A DNA stretch of 64,000 nt from NCBI GenBank assembly GCA_017161655.1, contig JADFCV010000003.1, positions 148,361 through 212,360 on the forward strand, read 5' to 3'. The notes beneath the pieces are model-generated. The model saw nothing but the letters and a program-made list of their open reading frames with translations, did no database searches and had not been told where the DNA came from. The translations under genes were made by a program, and so were the position numbers. Position 1 is the first letter of the stretch. Every line of letters starts with the position of its first letter. Origin of the DNA: Candidatus Sumerlaeota bacterium (GTDB lineage: Bacteria; Sumerlaeota; Sumerlaeia; Sumerlaeales; Sumerlaeaceae). Of the stretch, positions 49,355-60,723 are shown piece after piece.

Positions 49355-49846
49355 ATGAAAAGAGTCGCAGTGTTTGTTGATGTACAGAATATTTACCTAA
49401 CAACGAAGCAGGTTTTTGGCGACGGGCGCCTGAATTTTGAAACACTCCGCACCTACCTCTGCAAAACTGCTGACAACATTGTCACACTCAATGCCTTTAC
49501 TTGCTACGACCCGAACAACCGCGAACAAATGTCGTTTCTGAACGCACTTGGTCTCATCGGGTTTCGGGTCATTGCCAAACCGATTCGCCGACTTCCCAAT
49601 GGCGACATCAAAGCCAACATGGACCTCGAGATGGCGCTGGAGGTCATGAGCCAGTGCGACGCCGTGGACGAGGTCGTGCTCGTCACGGGGGACGGGGATT
49701 TCAAGGCGCTCGTAGACCACCTGGCCCGTCGGGGAAAAATCGTTCGCGTCATCGGCCCGCAGGAGCTCACCTCGCCCGACCTTATCCAGTCGTGCCACGC
49801 TTTCGAAAATCTTCATCAGATCCCCGGCATCCGCGATCTGAGCTGA
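49355..49846 (+). CDS. NYN-domain (DUF88/LabA-like) putative ribonuclease
   Basis: A 163-residue PIN-like NYN protein. The acidic residues that would bind metal are in VFVDVQNIY, KANMDLEMALE and VTGDGDFKALVDHL. NYN proteins of this type are predicted or shown to cut RNA. An AAAGGAG lies 10 bases before the ATG, a strong site. It stands 190 bases before nurA on the same strand and could be part of the defence island or a separate RNA-processing gene. Base composition is like the core genome, unlike nurA-herA. Confidence 0.85.
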   Translation: MKRVAVFVDVQNIYLTTKQVFGDGRLNFETLRTYLCKTADNIVTLNAFTCYDPNNREQMSFLNALGLIGFRVIAKPIRRLPNGDIKANMDLEMALEVMSQCDAVDEVVLVTGDGDFKALVDHLARRGKIVRVIGPQELTSPDLIQSCHAFENLHQIPGIRDLS

Positions 49847-50036
49847 GGCGAAACAGCACGCACAACCCCTAACGAATTTCGTTGAAAATGACGGTTTGCC
49901 GTGCAATGCCCTAGCGCGTGAAACATAGAGCGTGTTGTCTTTAGAATGAGACATAGTGACAGGAGCTGGTTGCTCCGTCTGTGGGGCGATCTATGACGGG
50001 GCAGGCCGTGCATTGGCTCGGCAGGGAGGGACTCGC

Positions 50037-51170
50037 ATGATTGATCCGGCTGATTTTCAAGATCTGAAGCAAGAGATTGAGAAATGTGTTGAGGCAGATC
50101 GCAGTCTCCTCGCGCAGCTATGCTCTGAAATCGATGGTCTGAGAAATAACGTTCACCGGATCCGGCCCCGTCGGGCGACTTCCGTATCGTTCGTGGCAGC
50201 TGATGGCGGAAACAATCAGCTCAGATTTGATCCATTCCTTATCCAGATCATACGAGTGGTAGATAGCAGCAACGAGCATCATTGCCTAGAGTTCGTCACG
50301 CCACACATCCCAGTGGCCAGACTCGATGAACGACATCTCACACCTCAGGGCATGCCTCAGAGCGCTCTTGGAGAGATGATGCGCGCCTTGGGCGTTGAGT
50401 CCCTAGCGCAGCTTAGCCCCATGATCAGAGACCCAGCACCGGGAAAGCCCCGTTCCGTCAGTTGGGTGCAAGTTTACAGAGAACTAACCGAATGGGCCGT
50501 ACTTTTTCGGCTTCTGAGTAAGGATTTTGCCACCGACACTCTCGTCCTCATGGACGGTTACCTACGAAGCAAAGTTTTTTCAAAGGATTTTTTCTCAAGA
50601 CTACTGAAAAAAATTGAAGAACGTGTCAATTCCCATTATCAGCGTATGCGGCGCAAGATCTACCTGGCGGGAATTGCCAAGAAAAGCAAAGTTTTAGATC
50701 GCTATAGACTAGCGATGGCTATGCAAGGGATTCTACAAACCCCTTATCCTGCCTATGTAGAAGTCCCCAGAGAGATAGAAGTAAAAGCCTACGAGTATGA
50801 GGAATATGCGCGCGGAGATGACATGGCAACGGCGGAGGGCGAGGCTAATAAGTTCGTAGGTGGGAAACTTTTCTTCGCAAAGTTCGGGGACAGAATTCAC
50901 GATGACATTTGGCCCATTGATATTTTTCTTCCCCAAACCGCGGAGGCGGATGCTATCATGGGTTTTTTACTCACTGAGGCACAAGATGGTTTTCCGGTCC
51001 CCTACTATCCCCGCTGTTTACAAAAAGCACATGAAAACGCAGCCTTGCATGACTTCGATTTCGAATTACTTCAGGACGCAATCTTTGAAGCCATTCGCTC
51101 CGCGCTAGGTGAGCAGGCACGTATTCTTGATGTGTTCGATTTAAAAGATAAGATTCTTTCCGGCAACTAA
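50037..51170 (+). CDS. nurA: NurA-domain nuclease
   Basis: A predicted 5'-3' nuclease of the NurA family (RNase-H-like fold), partner of the HerA translocase. About 377 residues. Visible family blocks are VAADGGNN (first acidic Asp, the usual DGS becomes DGG), LVLMDGYLRS (second acidic Asp) and LAGIAKKSKVLDRY. Later come KLFFAKFGDRIHDDIWPIDIF and the C-terminal AHENAAL-containing helix block. I choose the ATG at 50037 since GGGAGGG lies about 6 bases upstream; the frame is open 27 codons further. herA follows after 33 bases. In archaea the pair resects DNA ends; bacterial pairs occur mostly in defence loci. The gene is AT-rich (32% G+C in row 50581 by hand count), which suggests transfer. Confidence 0.88.
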   Translation: MIDPADFQDLKQEIEKCVEADRSLLAQLCSEIDGLRNNVHRIRPRRATSVSFVAADGGNNQLRFDPFLIQIIRVVDSSNEHHCLEFVTPHIPVARLDERHLTPQGMPQSALGEMMRALGVESLAQLSPMIRDPAPGKPRSVSWVQVYRELTEWAVLFRLLSKDFATDTLVLMDGYLRSKVFSKDFFSRLLKKIEERVNSHYQRMRRKIYLAGIAKKSKVLDRYRLAMAMQGILQTPYPAYVEVPREIEVKAYEYEEYARGDDMATAEGEANKFVGGKLFFAKFGDRIHDDIWPIDIFLPQTAEADAIMGFLLTEAQDGFPVPYYPRCLQKAHENAALHDFDFELLQDAIFEAIRSALGEQARILDVFDLKDKILSGN

Positions 51171-51203
51171 AACTATCAAAAAAAGATCATGGAGTAACCC
51201 AGC

Positions 51204-53297
51204 ATGGAATTGTTTCCAAAAAACAAAATCATAGGGATCTTTCGCGGCTTTCAGCCCCGCGATTTAGAATTTCATGCAGATTTAGTTTTTCCTTACAAGG
51301 CAGAATTCCAAAATATCCCTATGCACGGCCAATTTGTACTTGTCCAATTAGAAACTAACGATGAGGCCTTGTTAGGACGAATTGGAGCTTTTACATCGGA
51401 AGGAAAACTTTCCTATGGCGGTGGAGAAGAATTCAACATCCGGGCTGTTCAGGAAGACAGACCAATTCCAGAGGACCTCAGAGAGCAATACCTTCGTTAC
51501 CGTGTGATGATTCGGATTTTGGGAATCCTCAGGAACACACCTAACGGTCTCGTATTCGTTCCATCGCACCGACGTCTCCCGCATGTTGGTAGCAAGGTAG
51601 CATTTCCTAGCGACGAAGTCGTGAAGGAAATCGCGGGCCACAACACGCAAGGTGCTCCACTCGGACACCTTGCGTACGGGGAGTATGTCTTCTGTGGTAG
51701 TCAAGAAACTAATCATCAACAACCCTGGCTGATTAAAAAAGATCCGGAAATCATCGTTCGTTTTCCCATTGAATCACTTGTTGCGCGGCGAAGTCTTATT
51801 TTTGCTCGAGCAGGATTCGGTAAGTCGAACTTGAATAAACTCTTGTTTTCGGAGCTTTACCGCCAGACCCCGACTATTCGCAAGCGGGGGGGCCGGGCGG
51901 CTCCGGTTGGAACCATTATTTTTGACCCCGACGGGGAATATTTTTGGCCTGATGACAAGGGGCGACCAGGGCTTTGCGATGTTCCCCACCTTGAAGATAA
52001 ACTCGTAGTTTTTACCAAACGTCAAGGACCTAGTTCCTTTTACGATTCCTTCGTTGCGTGCAACGTCCGCTTGGATCTGCGCGATTTTCCGCCGGCCCAT
52101 GTCATTTCCATTGCGATCGATCCGGAACGACAAGAGCAACAAAATGTGCGCAAACTGAAAGGGCTAAGCCCGCAGCGGTGGAGTAAACTTGTGGAACTAA
52201 TTGAACGCGAAGGTCATGGTGCCAGCCTTGAAGAAATTGCCCACATTTTAGATCTCGACCCCGGGCGGCAAGAAGCAGAAGCGCTCGCCGCAAGAGCTAA
52301 CATGGCTACGATCGTCAAATTGTTGCATGATAGCAGCAGCCAGTTTCTCCACATGCTTGTGACTAGCCTCCGGGAAGGCAAGTTGTGCATTGTTGACTTG
52401 TCCCAGATGCGGGGTTCCCAGGGATTTATTCTAGCCTCGCTTATTTTGAACTACATCTTTACATTGAATCAGGACGAATTTACAAAAGCTGACCCCGAAA
52501 CCATCCCGACAGTAGCTGTTATTGAAGAAGCGCAATCTGTTTTGAGGGAAAACACATCCGCAAGTGAGCCGTTCATAGCGTGGATCAAAGAGGGACGAAA
52601 GTATGATCTCGGGGCTATTCTGATCACCCAGCAACCAGGAAGTATTCCCACAGAGATACTGAGTCAGGGTGATAACTGGTTTGTTTTCCACCTTTTATCG
52701 GCCGTGGACTTATATGCTTTAAAGAAAGCTAATGCGCATTTTAGTGACGACCTCCTCAGCTCATTGCTAAACGAACCAATTCCAGGTCATGGTGTGTTTT
52801 GGAGTTCAGCAGGGAAGCCATATCCCTTGAGTGTTCGGGTGCTTTCCTTTGAGTCTCTTTACCAGCCAAGAGATCCGTCTTTCTGCCTTCCAAAAGCACA
52901 GACCTTTGCTGAAGAATTAAAACTCCGACCAACTTTTAATATCCAACCACAAGAAACGCCTTCGTCCGGACCCGTTGGCCCGGCCAGTCCTCAGGAGCCG
53001 AAGAAAGTTCAGGACAAGCGGGCTATTATTGAAGAGGAGGCGATTGACCACTTCTGCAAATCAGAACTTGCTGAAAAGCTTCTTAAAGGCGAGAAAGTAA
53101 GGTGGGGGGAAATCAAGACATTTCATAAGAACTACATTGCAAAGCGCTACTCGGACATTGCCAACCTGGATAAGTTTTGCTACGATCTTGTCAGGCCATC
53201 ATTAGACAGGTTAAAGGATATCCATCACATTATTTGGGGTACTGTGATAGAAGAAGGAAAAACAAAAGTGTATTTCAAAAGCGCAGTGGATAAATAA
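51204..53297 (+). CDS. herA: HerA-type DNA translocase ATPase
   Basis: A 697-residue FtsK/HerA-type hexameric ATPase. The N-terminal HAS-barrel covers about residues 1-180. Walker A is ARAGFGKSN (about 201-209), Walker B is TVAVIEEA (436-443), the Arg-finger region is EGRKYDLG and the sensor block is LITQQPGSIP. The C-terminal ~100 residues (from KRAIIEEEAIDHF) form an extra charged helical domain not typical of archaeal HerA. It should pump DNA into or past NurA. The methyltransferase gene begins six bases after its stop, so the three genes are probably one transcript. Confidence 0.92.
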   Translation: MELFPKNKIIGIFRGFQPRDLEFHADLVFPYKAEFQNIPMHGQFVLVQLETNDEALLGRIGAFTSEGKLSYGGGEEFNIRAVQEDRPIPEDLREQYLRYRVMIRILGILRNTPNGLVFVPSHRRLPHVGSKVAFPSDEVVKEIAGHNTQGAPLGHLAYGEYVFCGSQETNHQQPWLIKKDPEIIVRFPIESLVARRSLIFARAGFGKSNLNKLLFSELYRQTPTIRKRGGRAAPVGTIIFDPDGEYFWPDDKGRPGLCDVPHLEDKLVVFTKRQGPSSFYDSFVACNVRLDLRDFPPAHVISIAIDPERQEQQNVRKLKGLSPQRWSKLVELIEREGHGASLEEIAHILDLDPGRQEAEALAARANMATIVKLLHDSSSQFLHMLVTSLREGKLCIVDLSQMRGSQGFILASLILNYIFTLNQDEFTKADPETIPTVAVIEEAQSVLRENTSASEPFIAWIKEGRKYDLGAILITQQPGSIPTEILSQGDNWFVFHLLSAVDLYALKKANAHFSDDLLSSLLNEPIPGHGVFWSSAGKPYPLSVRVLSFESLYQPRDPSFCLPKAQTFAEELKLRPTFNIQPQETPSSGPVGPASPQEPKKVQDKRAIIEEEAIDHFCKSELAEKLLKGEKVRWGEIKTFHKNYIAKRYSDIANLDKFCYDLVRPSLDRLKDIHHIIWGTVIEEGKTKVYFKSAVDK

Positions 53298-53303
53298 AAT
53301 GAT

Positions 53304-54395
53304 ATGATGATTCCTCTCCTAGGCATTTGTCCATATTTTACCATGTTTCCTATTTCTTTCCCTCTATCAGTTCTACAGGGAGCCACCACCCCCGGCGATA
53401 TTGTCCTAGACCCCTTCTGTGGGCGAGGAACGACGAATCTCGCTGCGCGTGTCCTGGGTTTGGAATCTGTCGGAGTAGATGCAAATCCTGTGGCCGTGGC
53501 CATTGCTCAGGCAAAACTGGTTTCTGTTTCCCCACATGACATTGTGGAGGAGGCTCAGGCGATGATTAGCCATACAACCTTCGACGCTGAGCTTCCTCAA
53601 GGCGAGTTCTGGGAGTTGGCTTACGCCCCTGAGGTATTGCATACGCTTTGTCGCTTCCGGAAAGCTCTTTTAGAGGATTGCGGGACACCCGCGCGCATCG
53701 CCCTACGAGCTATCCTGCTAGGCGCCCTTCATGGGCCAATTTACAAGAATGTCCAGGGCTACTTTTCGAACCAATGCCCCCGAACCTACGCGCCGAAGCC
53801 TGACTATGCCATCCGTTTTTGGAAAACTCACAAACTTAGTCCGCCTAAGGTTGACATTTTAGGCATCATCGCTCGGCGGGCCCAACGATACTATTCTGTG
53901 AGTTATCCATCCACGGGATCCATTCGCTTGGGAGATAGTCGAGAACAACAGGCTTTAGCTCCGCCGCAAGGAAAGGAGGCATTCACATGGGTCATAACTT
54001 CTCCTCCGTACTGGGGTATGCGGACCTATATCACAGATCAATGGTTGCGCTACTGGTTCCTTGGCGGTCCCTCTACCGTGGACTACTCCGCTCAAGGGCA
54101 GCTTTCCCATTCCACTTCCACATCGTTTGCTCGCGATTTGCGGAGTGTTTGGAAAAACGCAGCGCAGGTGTGTGCTCCGAAAGCGAAACTTGTCATCAGG
54201 TTTGGCGCGATCTCGTCGCGAAAAGTGGATCCGCTTACTCTCCTGGAAGAGTCCCTTGCGGATACCGGATGGGTTATCACAAAGGTCCAAGATGCCGGCA
54301 CGGCGCCACGGGGTCGCCGGCAAGCTGATACTTTCTTGAGACGAGATTCAAAACCTGTCCGAGAGCTAGATGTCTGGGCAAAGAAGATTGCGTAA
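53304..54395 (+). CDS. DNA methyltransferase with TSPPYW motif, NurA-HerA linked
   Basis: A 363-residue SAM-dependent DNA methyltransferase. Motif I is DPFCGRGTTNLAA (about residue 36) and motif IV is TSPPYWGMRTY (about 232-242), typical of N4-cytosine or some N6-adenine enzymes. Motif I precedes motif IV, the reverse of the common beta-class order, with ~190 residues between that could hold a target-recognition part. The start MMIPLLGICPYFTMFP lies six bases after the herA stop without its own ribosome binding site, implying coupling. It could mark self DNA for a NurA-HerA nuclease. Target sequence unknown. An orphan or epigenetic role is the alternative. Confidence 0.85.
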   Translation: MMIPLLGICPYFTMFPISFPLSVLQGATTPGDIVLDPFCGRGTTNLAARVLGLESVGVDANPVAVAIAQAKLVSVSPHDIVEEAQAMISHTTFDAELPQGEFWELAYAPEVLHTLCRFRKALLEDCGTPARIALRAILLGALHGPIYKNVQGYFSNQCPRTYAPKPDYAIRFWKTHKLSPPKVDILGIIARRAQRYYSVSYPSTGSIRLGDSREQQALAPPQGKEAFTWVITSPPYWGMRTYITDQWLRYWFLGGPSTVDYSAQGQLSHSTSTSFARDLRSVWKNAAQVCAPKAKLVIRFGAISSRKVDPLTLLEESLADTGWVITKVQDAGTAPRGRRQADTFLRRDSKPVRELDVWAKKIA

Positions 54396-55111: not shown

Positions 55112-55768
55112 ATGAACGCTCACATCAAATCGCGCAAACGGGTTGTGGACTTTGGCGAAGTGCTCACGCCGCCCCACATCGTGGAGGCGATGCTCGACCT
55201 GGTGGCCAGCGAGGCCGAACGCATTGATTCACGCTTTCTCGAGCCGGCGTGCGGCACGGGGAATTTCCTTGTCCCTGTGCTCGAGCGTAAGCTCGCCACC
55301 GTCAAGAAACGCTACGGCCGCCGCCAGATTGAATTCGAGCGCAACGCCATTCTCGCAGTCTCCTCGCTCTATGGAATCGACATTCTCGAGGATAACGCGC
55401 GCGAGTGCCGCGAGCGTTTATTCCAGGTGTTCGACGCGGCCTACACCGGCACGTTTCGCGACGCGGCCCGGCAAGCTGTGCGCGATGCCGTCCGCTACAT
55501 CCTTCAGCGCAACATCATCCATGGCGACGCCCTCACGCTGAAAACCGTCGGCGAAAACCCGGGGCCCATTGTCTTTAGCGAATGGTCGCTGGTCAAGGGA
55601 TCCCTTCTTAAGCGCCGCGATTTCACTTTTCACGAGCTATTAGACCAGAGCTCGATGCGCGAGCTTCCCCTTTTTTCAGACCTTGGAGAGGAGGCCTTCA
55701 TCCCCGAGCCAATCCGCGAGTATCCGCCCATTCCCTACTGGGAGGTGCCCCATGCCTATGACGATTAG
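55112..55768 (+). CDS. DNA methyltransferase-like protein lacking the NPPY motif
   Basis: A 218-residue protein with a good SAM-binding motif I ([14 protein letters not shown]), the N-terminal [14 protein letters not shown] found in adenine methyltransferases, and IIHGDALTL. Where NPPY should follow, it reads [19 protein letters not shown], and the protein soon ends. It therefore binds SAM but probably does not methylate. Its stop lies inside the next gene, which starts 17 bases before it ends, so the two are translationally coupled. Its catalytic partner is the Eco57I-type methyltransferase that follows. A role as an inactive subunit is inference. Confidence 0.82.
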
Positions 55769-57260
55769 TCACAATCCCGATGTGCTCTTATGCCTGGCCA
55801 ACCTTTCGAGCGACGAGGTTTTCACCCCGCCGCGGATTGCCAACGACATGCTGGACCTTTTGCCCAACGAGCTCTGGAGCGACCCTGAAGCCCGGTTTCT
55901 GGATCCCGCCTGCAAGTCCGGGGTGTTCCTGCGCGAGATTGCCAAACGGCTCGATAAGGGATTGCAAACAAAAATCCCCGACCGGCAGGAGCGCATCAAC
56001 CATATTATGAAAAACCAGCTCTTTGGCATCGCGATCACGGAACTTACCGGCCTGCTCGCCCGACGCTCGCTCTATTGTTCCAAGTCCGCGAACGGGAAGT
56101 ATTCGGTATGCACGGTTTTCGGCACGCCCGAGGGCAACATCCGCTATCGGCGCATAGAACACACCTGGAAACATGGCCGCTGCGCCTTCTGCGGCGCCAA
56201 CGCTGCCAAATATGCCCGCGGCGAGGAACTTGAAACCCACGCCTATGAGTTTATCCACACCGACAACCCGGAGGAGATTTTTGATATGAAATTTGACGTT
56301 ATCATCGGCAACCCGCCATATCAATTGAGTGACGGGGGATTTGGTAGAAGCGCGACGCCGATTTACAACAAGTTTGTCCATCAGGCCAAGAAGCTGAATC
56401 CGCGCTATCTGGTGATGATTATCCCTTCGCGGTGGTTTGCAGGCGGCAAGGGCCTGGATGCTTTCAGAGCCGAAATGCTAAACGATGATCGGATCCGTAA
56501 ACTGGTTGATTTCGAGGATGCCTCGGAAGTCTTTCCAGGTGTGGATATAGCCGGCGGTGTCTGTTATTTCCTTTGGGAGCGGGACTCCCGCGGACCTTGT
56601 GAAGTGACCAATGTGCATAAGGGTGAAAAGGTCGTTTCGGTCCGAAGTCTCAATGAATTCCCCACCTTCATTCGTCACAGTCAAGCCGTATCCATTGTGC
56701 GCAAGGTGCTCGGAAAGAAGGAGAGGAGCATGAGCGAACAGGTATCAGCCAGTAAACCCTTTGGATTGCGTACTTTTGAGCGTCCTCAAAAGTCTGGCGA
56801 TCTCATCTTGCGCTGGCAAAATGGGGAAGGACCTTACCCAAAAAACCTTATCACTGTTGGTACTGAGCTTATTGATAAATGGAAGGTCATTACATCCTAC
56901 GTTGGCTATGACCACGCTGGAAATCCTGGGCCGGACGGAAAGAGAAGAGTCTTTTCCAAAATTGACATCCTACCACCAGGGACAATCTGTACTGAAACGT
57001 ATTTGGTAGTTGGGGCTTACGATTCCCGAAAACACGCTGAGAATTTAGTTGCTTACATGAAAACCAGGCTATTCCGTTTCCTCGTGTCTCAGTTCATGTA
57101 TTCGCATCACATCACAAAGGACGCTTACGCTTTCGTCCCCACTCTCGACATGGACACCGAATGGACTGACGAAATGCTTTATAAGCGATACGGACTTACG
57201 GAGGAGGAGATCGCCTTTATCGAGTCAAAAATCCGGCCTATGGAGGCGAACAATGAGTAA
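55752..57260 (+). CDS. Eco57I-type DNA adenine methyltransferase
   Basis: About 502 residues. Motif I is [12 protein letters not shown] (residues 49-60; the usual Gly is Lys), and the catalytic motif IV is [13 protein letters not shown] (NPPY at 187-190). A small zinc-ribbon-like insert has [10 protein letters not shown] (Cys144, Cys147). The C-terminal half should contain the target-recognition domain. An ATG at 55752 follows GGGAGGTG. G+C drops from about 55% in the catalytic half to 38% in row 56821 (hand counts), consistent with exchange of the specificity domain. It overlaps the upstream methyltransferase-like gene. Adenine methylation of self DNA, with the GIY-YIG helicase downstream as nuclease, is the natural reading. 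Confidence 0.9.
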
Positions 57261-57302
57261 CCATTCTATTCCTCAAACCATCTTTAGCACAGGAGGTTTA
57301 TT

Positions 57303-58215
57303 ATGACATTTCTTGAACTAATAGAGAAGGTGCTTCGAGAAGAACGGCGCCCGTTAACTGCTAAAGAAATATGGGACATAGCGGAAAAAAGAGGCTATGC
57401 TGAACAAGTTGGCACACGTGGAAAAACACCGTGGGCAACGATACAGTCAACCATCTATGTTGAGATGCGGGATAATCCCAACTCCAAGCTCACGAAATCA
57501 GGGCGAAGGCCTACCCGTTTTGTGTTAAAGGAATTTGCGGATGTACCTATACCATCAAGCAATGAACCAACACTTCCTACTAAAGCTAATTATACAGAAA
57601 GAAACCTTCATCCATTTCTGACTTACTTCACCTACATGTACCAGGGGATCTATACCAAAACAATTTATCATCAGAATTCATCTAAAGAGCGCTATGCCCA
57701 GTGGCTGCATCCAGACATGGTAGGCGTGTATTTCCCTTTGGATACCTGGAGACCGGAGGTACTGGAGATTGCGCGGGAGGTGGGAACCCAGGTCCTTAGG
57801 TTGTATTCCTACGAACTAAAACGAGAACTTACCTTTAACAACTTGCGCGAGGCCTTTTTCCAAGCAGTATCTAACTCCTCCTGGGCACATCAAGGATATT
57901 TGGTTGCATCAGTGATTGCTCAGGATGAAGACTTTATAGAGGAACTAAAGCGGCTGTCCACTTCTTTCGGAATTGGCGTAATCAAACTCGACGTTCACAA
58001 TCCAGATGACTCGGAAATTCTGATTCCGGCAAAAGAAAGAGAGTTTCTGGACATAAACACGATCAATCGACTTGCAGAAATAAATAGCGATTTCCGCAAA
58101 TTTCTCAAGGGAATTAAAATTGACCTTTCCAGCAAAGAAATACGCAAGGAACGTTATGATCCAGTTCTTAGCAGCGAAGAGCTGGTACGTTCAATAAGTG
58201 AAACGGAGCCTGCCG

Positions 58216-58223
<8 letters not shown>
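57303..58223 (+). CDS. HARE-HTH protein, COG2958-like
   Basis: A 306-residue protein. The first ~75 residues form a HARE-type winged helix (MTFLELIEKVLREERRPLT, WDIAEKRGY, then WATIQSTIY), found in chromatin proteins and restriction enzymes. The remainder (from about residue 95) resembles the conserved part of COG2958 proteins, with the blocks YAQWLHPDMVGVYFP and SYELKRELTF. It is AT-rich (33% G+C in row 57541 by hand count). GGAGG lies seven bases before the ATG. It overlaps the helicase gene by 8 bases. Such proteins accompany restriction-modification loci and may recognise modified or target DNA; whether this one is a nuclease is not clear. Confidence 0.8.

Positions 58224-60723
<2,500 letters not shown>

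Follow-up and report, generated by a model that had tools for sequence, protein, structure and literature searches.

In the phosphorothioate system TdpC-TdpAB, restriction is carried out by TdpAB, which degrades unmodified DNA and is itself restrained by the mark of the host. The characterized NurA-HerA complexes act at DNA ends (PMC9960219; PMC4641729). The repair phenotypes of Deinococcus and Thermus strains deleted for NurA-HerA are modest or paradoxical (PMC9960219). In 2026 it was proposed for archaea that NurA-HerA performs antiviral degradation in place of resection (PMC12977600). What the pair does in bacteria is still a matter of debate, and a conserved methyltransferase partner offers a direct test.

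Such a partner is encoded in a stretch of 64,000 nucleotides of a Candidatus Sumerlaeota bacterium (contig JADFCV010000003.1), here called the window. It harbours a nurA, a herA and a DNA methyltransferase gene, in that order and all on the plus strand, separated by 33 bases (nurA-herA) and 6 bases (herA-methyltransferase), in a tight operon of coupled genes (Table 1). A reading of the DNA by itself (the sequence-only reading) had given the same coordinates, strand and gaps, and had described the genes as AT-richer than their surroundings. Indeed, their GC contents of 48.8, 47.2 and 53.0 %, respectively, lie below that of the window (55.8 %) and that of the adjacent sucA gene (60.6 %). The longest nurA reading frame starts at GTG 49956; since alignments with relatives begin at residue 28, the start is likely to be ATG 50037. 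The promoter is presumably located in the leader between nurA and a preceding NYN-domain nuclease gene (49355-49846); in one relative locus (L010) a PIN7-domain gene likewise lies immediately upstream of nurA. Directly downstream of the operon (55112-60723) a second, restriction-like gene set is found, consisting of two Eco57I/MmeI-type methyltransferase reading frames, a HARE-HTH protein and a T5orf172 (GIY-YIG) protein with a ResIII helicase. The single PADLOC model PDLC03626 for Type IIG systems matches two separate reading frames of this set.

Table 1 Coordinates of the three-gene operon in the window and of related gene sets at other loci (positions within each locus)
Feature	Locus	Position	Strand	Length	Remark
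nurA-like nuclease gene	window	50037..51170	+	377 aa	
herA-like hexameric DNA translocase ATPase gene	window	51204..53297	+	697 aa	
N6_N4_Mtase-family amino-methyltransferase gene	window	53304..54395	+	363 aa	N4-cytosine or N6-adenine; motif order X-I-...-IV
Intergenic leader, NYN gene to nurA	window	49847..50036	+		sequence read directly
Divergent HerA-NurA-methyltransferase operon	L111	128-4887			
Divergent HerA-NurA-methyltransferase operon	L153	4226-9083			
Divergent HerA-NurA-methyltransferase operon	L154	8738-13539			
Divergent HerA-NurA-methyltransferase operon	L112	8130-12900			
Methyltransferase family with ~1400-aa AAA helicase	L083	9956-15306			paired or same island
Methyltransferase family with ~1400-aa AAA helicase	L084	9944-15465			paired or same island
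Methyltransferase family with ~1400-aa AAA helicase	L013	1-4118			paired or same island

Pfam, PADLOC and NCBIfam gave no match for the NurA protein. When a profile built from 36 relatives was searched against the PDB, TdpB was the sole match (7e-6). The AF2 predicted structure (pLDDT 86) also found TdpB as best PDB match in Foldseek (6.6e-11, at 19 % identity), followed by NurA of S. solfataricus (8e-6). Residues D56, E152, D173, Y324 and H332 are invariant among the relatives and, judged by their order and spacing, presumably correspond to the archaeal active site. This correspondence is supported by the catalytic role of D58 in S. solfataricus NurA (PMC4641729). Profile, predicted structure and invariant residues point to a NurA-type protein with an RNase H-like fold and an acidic active site. 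HerA carries the HerA central domain (Pfam DUF87/HerA PF01935, 7e-20), with Walker A GFGKSN and Walker B VAVIEEA; Walker A residues 204-209 and E441/E442 are invariant. Against all PDB chains its profile matched TdpA best (1e-26) and HerA of S. solfataricus next (4e-16). TdpA and TdpB are thus the nearest solved relatives of HerA and NurA (TdpAB structures 8wet, 8wfd and 8y1k), the similarity being remote for both and, between TdpA and HerA, read as relatedness rather than orthology. Where TdpA falls in the HerA tree is not relied upon, the sequence being partial and its branch very long; the TdpA fragment had no match among plasmids.

The third protein belongs to the N6_N4_Mtase family (PF01555, 3e-15) and displays the motifs DPFCGRGTT and TSPPYW. 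Its AF2 model (pLDDT 90) has Dam of E. coli as best Foldseek match. DPFCGRGTT, SNQ..RT and TSPPY are invariant across relatives, and the catalytic residues of all three proteins appear intact. Target recognition would be expected between motifs I and IV; this segment holds the invariant SNQ..RT and KP residues, and part of it equals the catalytic motifs in conservation. The target site may therefore be common to the whole methyltransferase family.

A scan of species-representative genomes for HerA relatives yielded 138 confirmed proteins, of which 80, all at least 53 % identical, were kept. They span Proteobacteria, Acidobacteria, Chloroflexi, Firmicutes, Cyanobacteria, Planctomycetes, Bacteroidetes and relatives of Leptospira, as well as archaea such as Methanoperedens. 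Among cultured organisms, carriers include Pandoraea nosoerga, Thermomonas flagellata, Thermovorax subterraneus and Nitratireductor sp. XY-223. NurA adjoins HerA in all 80, and the same methyltransferase family is encoded within the locus in 58. Conservation of the three genes together, set beforehand as the test on which the sequence-only reading would stand or fall, was thus found across phyla. Among the 58 loci the order is nurA-herA-methyltransferase in 37 and methyltransferase-nurA-herA in 13; in seven nurA-herA is followed by a convergent methyltransferase gene and in one the methyltransferase lies 1.6 kb upstream. As a rule, nurA and herA are -8 to +25 bases apart, and herA and the methyltransferase gene -58 to +20 bases; a few larger overlaps stem from the calling of reading frames. 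The layouts track the HerA tree with five changes. The methyltransferase and HerA trees are congruent (Mantel r 0.65, 0 of 2000 permutations; 0.82 once the exchanged loci L014, L018 and L047 are left out), a value that mirrors co-inheritance as well as any functional coupling. The association of nurA, herA and the methyltransferase gene is real, widespread and more than chance.

This methyltransferase is missing at 22 of the 80 loci. Some of these end at a contig cut or have another methyltransferase nearby, and for several no methyltransferase was found within 10 kb or in the assembly. On the HerA tree they nest inside the family (13 changes) and therefore mostly look like losses or assembly cuts. 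Other methyltransferase genes occur at some loci: a D12 methyltransferase convergent with HerA (L074), two HsdM-type genes (L050) and further methyltransferase-like genes (L068, L033); a match at L035 (28 % over 91 amino acids) was discarded as too weak. A search of 22 of the genomes concerned found in G015 the methyltransferase gene on another contig (52 % identity), the HerA contig (L045) being cut. Four other genomes (G003, G004, G008 and G016) harbour copies of ~45 % identity, which group with methyltransferases paired with a ~1400-aa helicase-nuclease of Rhizobium and Bradyrhizobium plasmids; in G004 this helicase-nuclease lies in the same island as NurA-HerA. The ~1400-aa AAA protein, a presumed nuclease found on conjugative Rhizobium/Bradyrhizobium plasmids, is related to the DpdJ and Mokosh helicases. 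A nested methyltransferase clade is thus paired with a helicase-nuclease instead, a partner exchange expected of a modification subunit.

The converse search, with a methyltransferase profile in 402 genomes of two other phyla, gave matches in 15 genomes. Both close matches (L099 and L150/L155) lie directly after HerA. Apart from four exceptions described below, the remaining ones occur with other partners; their identity, where it was measured, is ~27-36 %; the sample from the phylum of G076 was too small to be informative. That the methyltransferase would as a rule occur without NurA-HerA, the other outcome that would have spoken against the proposal, was not borne out: the close family is almost always found with NurA-HerA or, in one clade, with the substitute helicase-nuclease. 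Another methyltransferase branch (L085 7823-11095, L101, L102, L103 and L114) follows a ParB-like protein and a ~350-aa protein that had no Pfam match, and is possibly a separate system. At L113 (7380-9649) a related methyltransferase comes directly after a DUF262-like protein (domain recognized by eye), hinting at a GmrSD-type partner.

The four exceptions (L111, L112, L153 and L154), from two phyla, are HerA-NurA-methyltransferase operons with overlapping or touching genes. Their HerA and NurA are very divergent and their methyltransferase is a distant relative of that of the operon. NurA was confirmed by Pfam at L111 and L112; at L153 and L154, where Pfam gave no match, the DGS motif, size and position suggest a NurA. 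The herA of L112 may be broken, since it is split over two overlapping frames. Searching with the divergent NurA furthermore revealed a D12 (Dam-type) methyltransferase that overlaps HerA and is followed by a Pfam-positive NurA (L149, 3132-7577). Taken together, these operons indicate that at least two unrelated groups of DNA methyltransferases have been joined to HerA-NurA. Two family members encode a 39-41 % identical NurA-HerA without this methyltransferase, one of them (L098, 6798-12777) beside a DpnI-family nuclease and its separate methyltransferase.

The module is patchily distributed and has spread horizontally. Any HerA relative was found in just 4 of 61 relative genomes, and a genome of the same genus (80 % complete) had no HerA relative and different genes beside sucA. 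The phage collection held no HerA or methyltransferase relatives, and plasmids no close HerA. Enrichment near known defence genes was a further check named by the sequence-only reading. Here 266 PADLOC models had a match among 117 flanking proteins, against 98 models among 103 control proteins from carrier genomes, but these counts are inflated by redundant and heavily overlapping models, so that the signal is just mild. Some individual loci adjoin TmtA, HamC or DrmD, whereas many genes flanking the module belong to ordinary metabolism.

The three genes probably constitute one restriction-modification-like unit, in which HerA-NurA would degrade DNA and a methyl mark would spare that of the host. 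It is best read as working like TdpC-TdpAB, with base methylation replacing the sulfur mark. In host DNA, a short sequence would be marked by the methyltransferase. A HerA hexamer and a NurA dimer would load on duplex DNA, pump it with ATP and degrade it, and marked DNA would be spared, probably through stalling of the motor or blocking of the nuclease by the mark. This mechanism is modelled on TdpAB and on the literature on NurA-HerA (PMC9960219; PMC4641729; PMC12977600). We infer the role in defence, the degradation of DNA, the sparing of methylated DNA and the methylated base. The reading is preferred because the three genes stay together in different phyla and the methyltransferase almost always accompanies NurA-HerA or a substitute, and it is strengthened by the relationship of HerA and NurA to TdpA and TdpB, which the sequence-only reading had missed. 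The restriction-like system proposed by the latter is thus supported in part. The mildness of the defence enrichment, the metabolic character of many neighbours, the 22 loci lacking the methyltransferase, the failure to find any counterpart of a site-recognition subunit and the action of characterized NurA-HerA complexes at DNA ends (PMC9960219; PMC4641729) count against it.

This last point is what an alternative based on end-processing would build on: NurA-HerA would degrade any DNA from its ends, as RecBCD does, and on host DNA the methylated sites would, like Chi, act as brakes at which degradation gives way to recombination. The T. kodakarensis study compares the system with RecBCD and is sceptical of a role in resection alone (PMC12977600), and the apparently constant specificity region of the methyltransferase would suit one fixed signal. 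Nevertheless, mobility and patchy distribution fit an accessory immune trait better than core repair, and the swap to a different helicase-nuclease fits restriction as well; this alternative is considered improbable. With the operon lacking another specificity protein, the methyltransferase might double as the site-reading subunit and, as part of a Type I-like complex, bring NurA-HerA to sites that are not methylated, NurA-HerA itself not being sensitive to the mark. At many loci herA and the methyltransferase gene show stop-start coupling, which suggests equal expression, but in other layouts the methyltransferase gene is convergent or 1.6 kb away, and a complex of this kind is considered quite unlikely.

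A repair or housekeeping NurA-HerA pair that happens to lie beside an unrelated methyltransferase is the least probable explanation and seems very unlikely. Some NurA-HerA pairs do lack a methyltransferase of this family in their vicinity (e.g. L097), and it is missing at the 22 loci mentioned above. However, co-occurrence in 58 of 80 loci with three compact layouts, the congruence of the trees and the presence of methyltransferases in two further lineages disfavour it, as does the absence of the module from most relatives.

The preferred, restriction-like reading predicts a gene-dependent methylation motif and a methyl-sensitive nuclease activity of NurA-HerA. If true, it would reveal a widespread, unnamed restriction-like class in many phyla, and sulfur and methyl marks could both feed the same kind of motor-nuclease. 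A more far-reaching proposal is tentative and rather doubtful as a whole: HerA-NurA may be a general restriction engine joined several times to unrelated methyltransferases, in which the methyl mark does not act where DNA is cleaved but on an end-resection machine in translocation, by blocking its motor or braking it in the manner of Chi. Such ATP-driven restriction would form a class apart from Types I-IV, and phosphorothioate TdpAB would be one branch of it.

The open-access literature yielded no description of a NurA-HerA-methyltransferase system, in agreement with the earlier remark that this exact set is not a recognized named system; mention in older papers (Iyer 2004; Makarova 2011, 2013) is possible. 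MADS, DISARM, BREX and other methylation-linked multigene systems share the logic of a DNA methyltransferase with an ATPase, but the present operon has three genes only and lacks their hallmark proteins; the mad1-mad8 set of MADS is not present in it, with weak similarity to mad8 only. The anti-phage systems SIR2-HerA and DUF4297-HerA also combine a HerA ATPase with an effector, which here is NurA, accompanied by a methyltransferase; the NCBIfam model for anti-phage HerA scored 55 bits, below its cut-off of 800. DndFGH and the 'HerA/FtsK capture' systems likewise recruit a HerA-type motor for restriction, with a different nuclease and mark, and NurA goes unmentioned in these papers (PMC10853773; PMC12839542). 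Archaeal and Deinococcus NurA-HerA end-resection complexes share both folds, adjacent genes and conserved catalytic residues with the pair described here, which differs in the methyltransferase in its operon, in its mobile and patchy occurrence and in a sequence closer to TdpAB than to archaeal HerA. As in restriction-modification systems, a DNA methyltransferase is genetically linked to a nuclease and kept together with it. TdpC-TdpAB has the same combination of a HerA-type motor and a NurA-type nuclease, whereas the mark gene, third in the operon, encodes not TdpC but a SAM-dependent DNA amino-methyltransferase.
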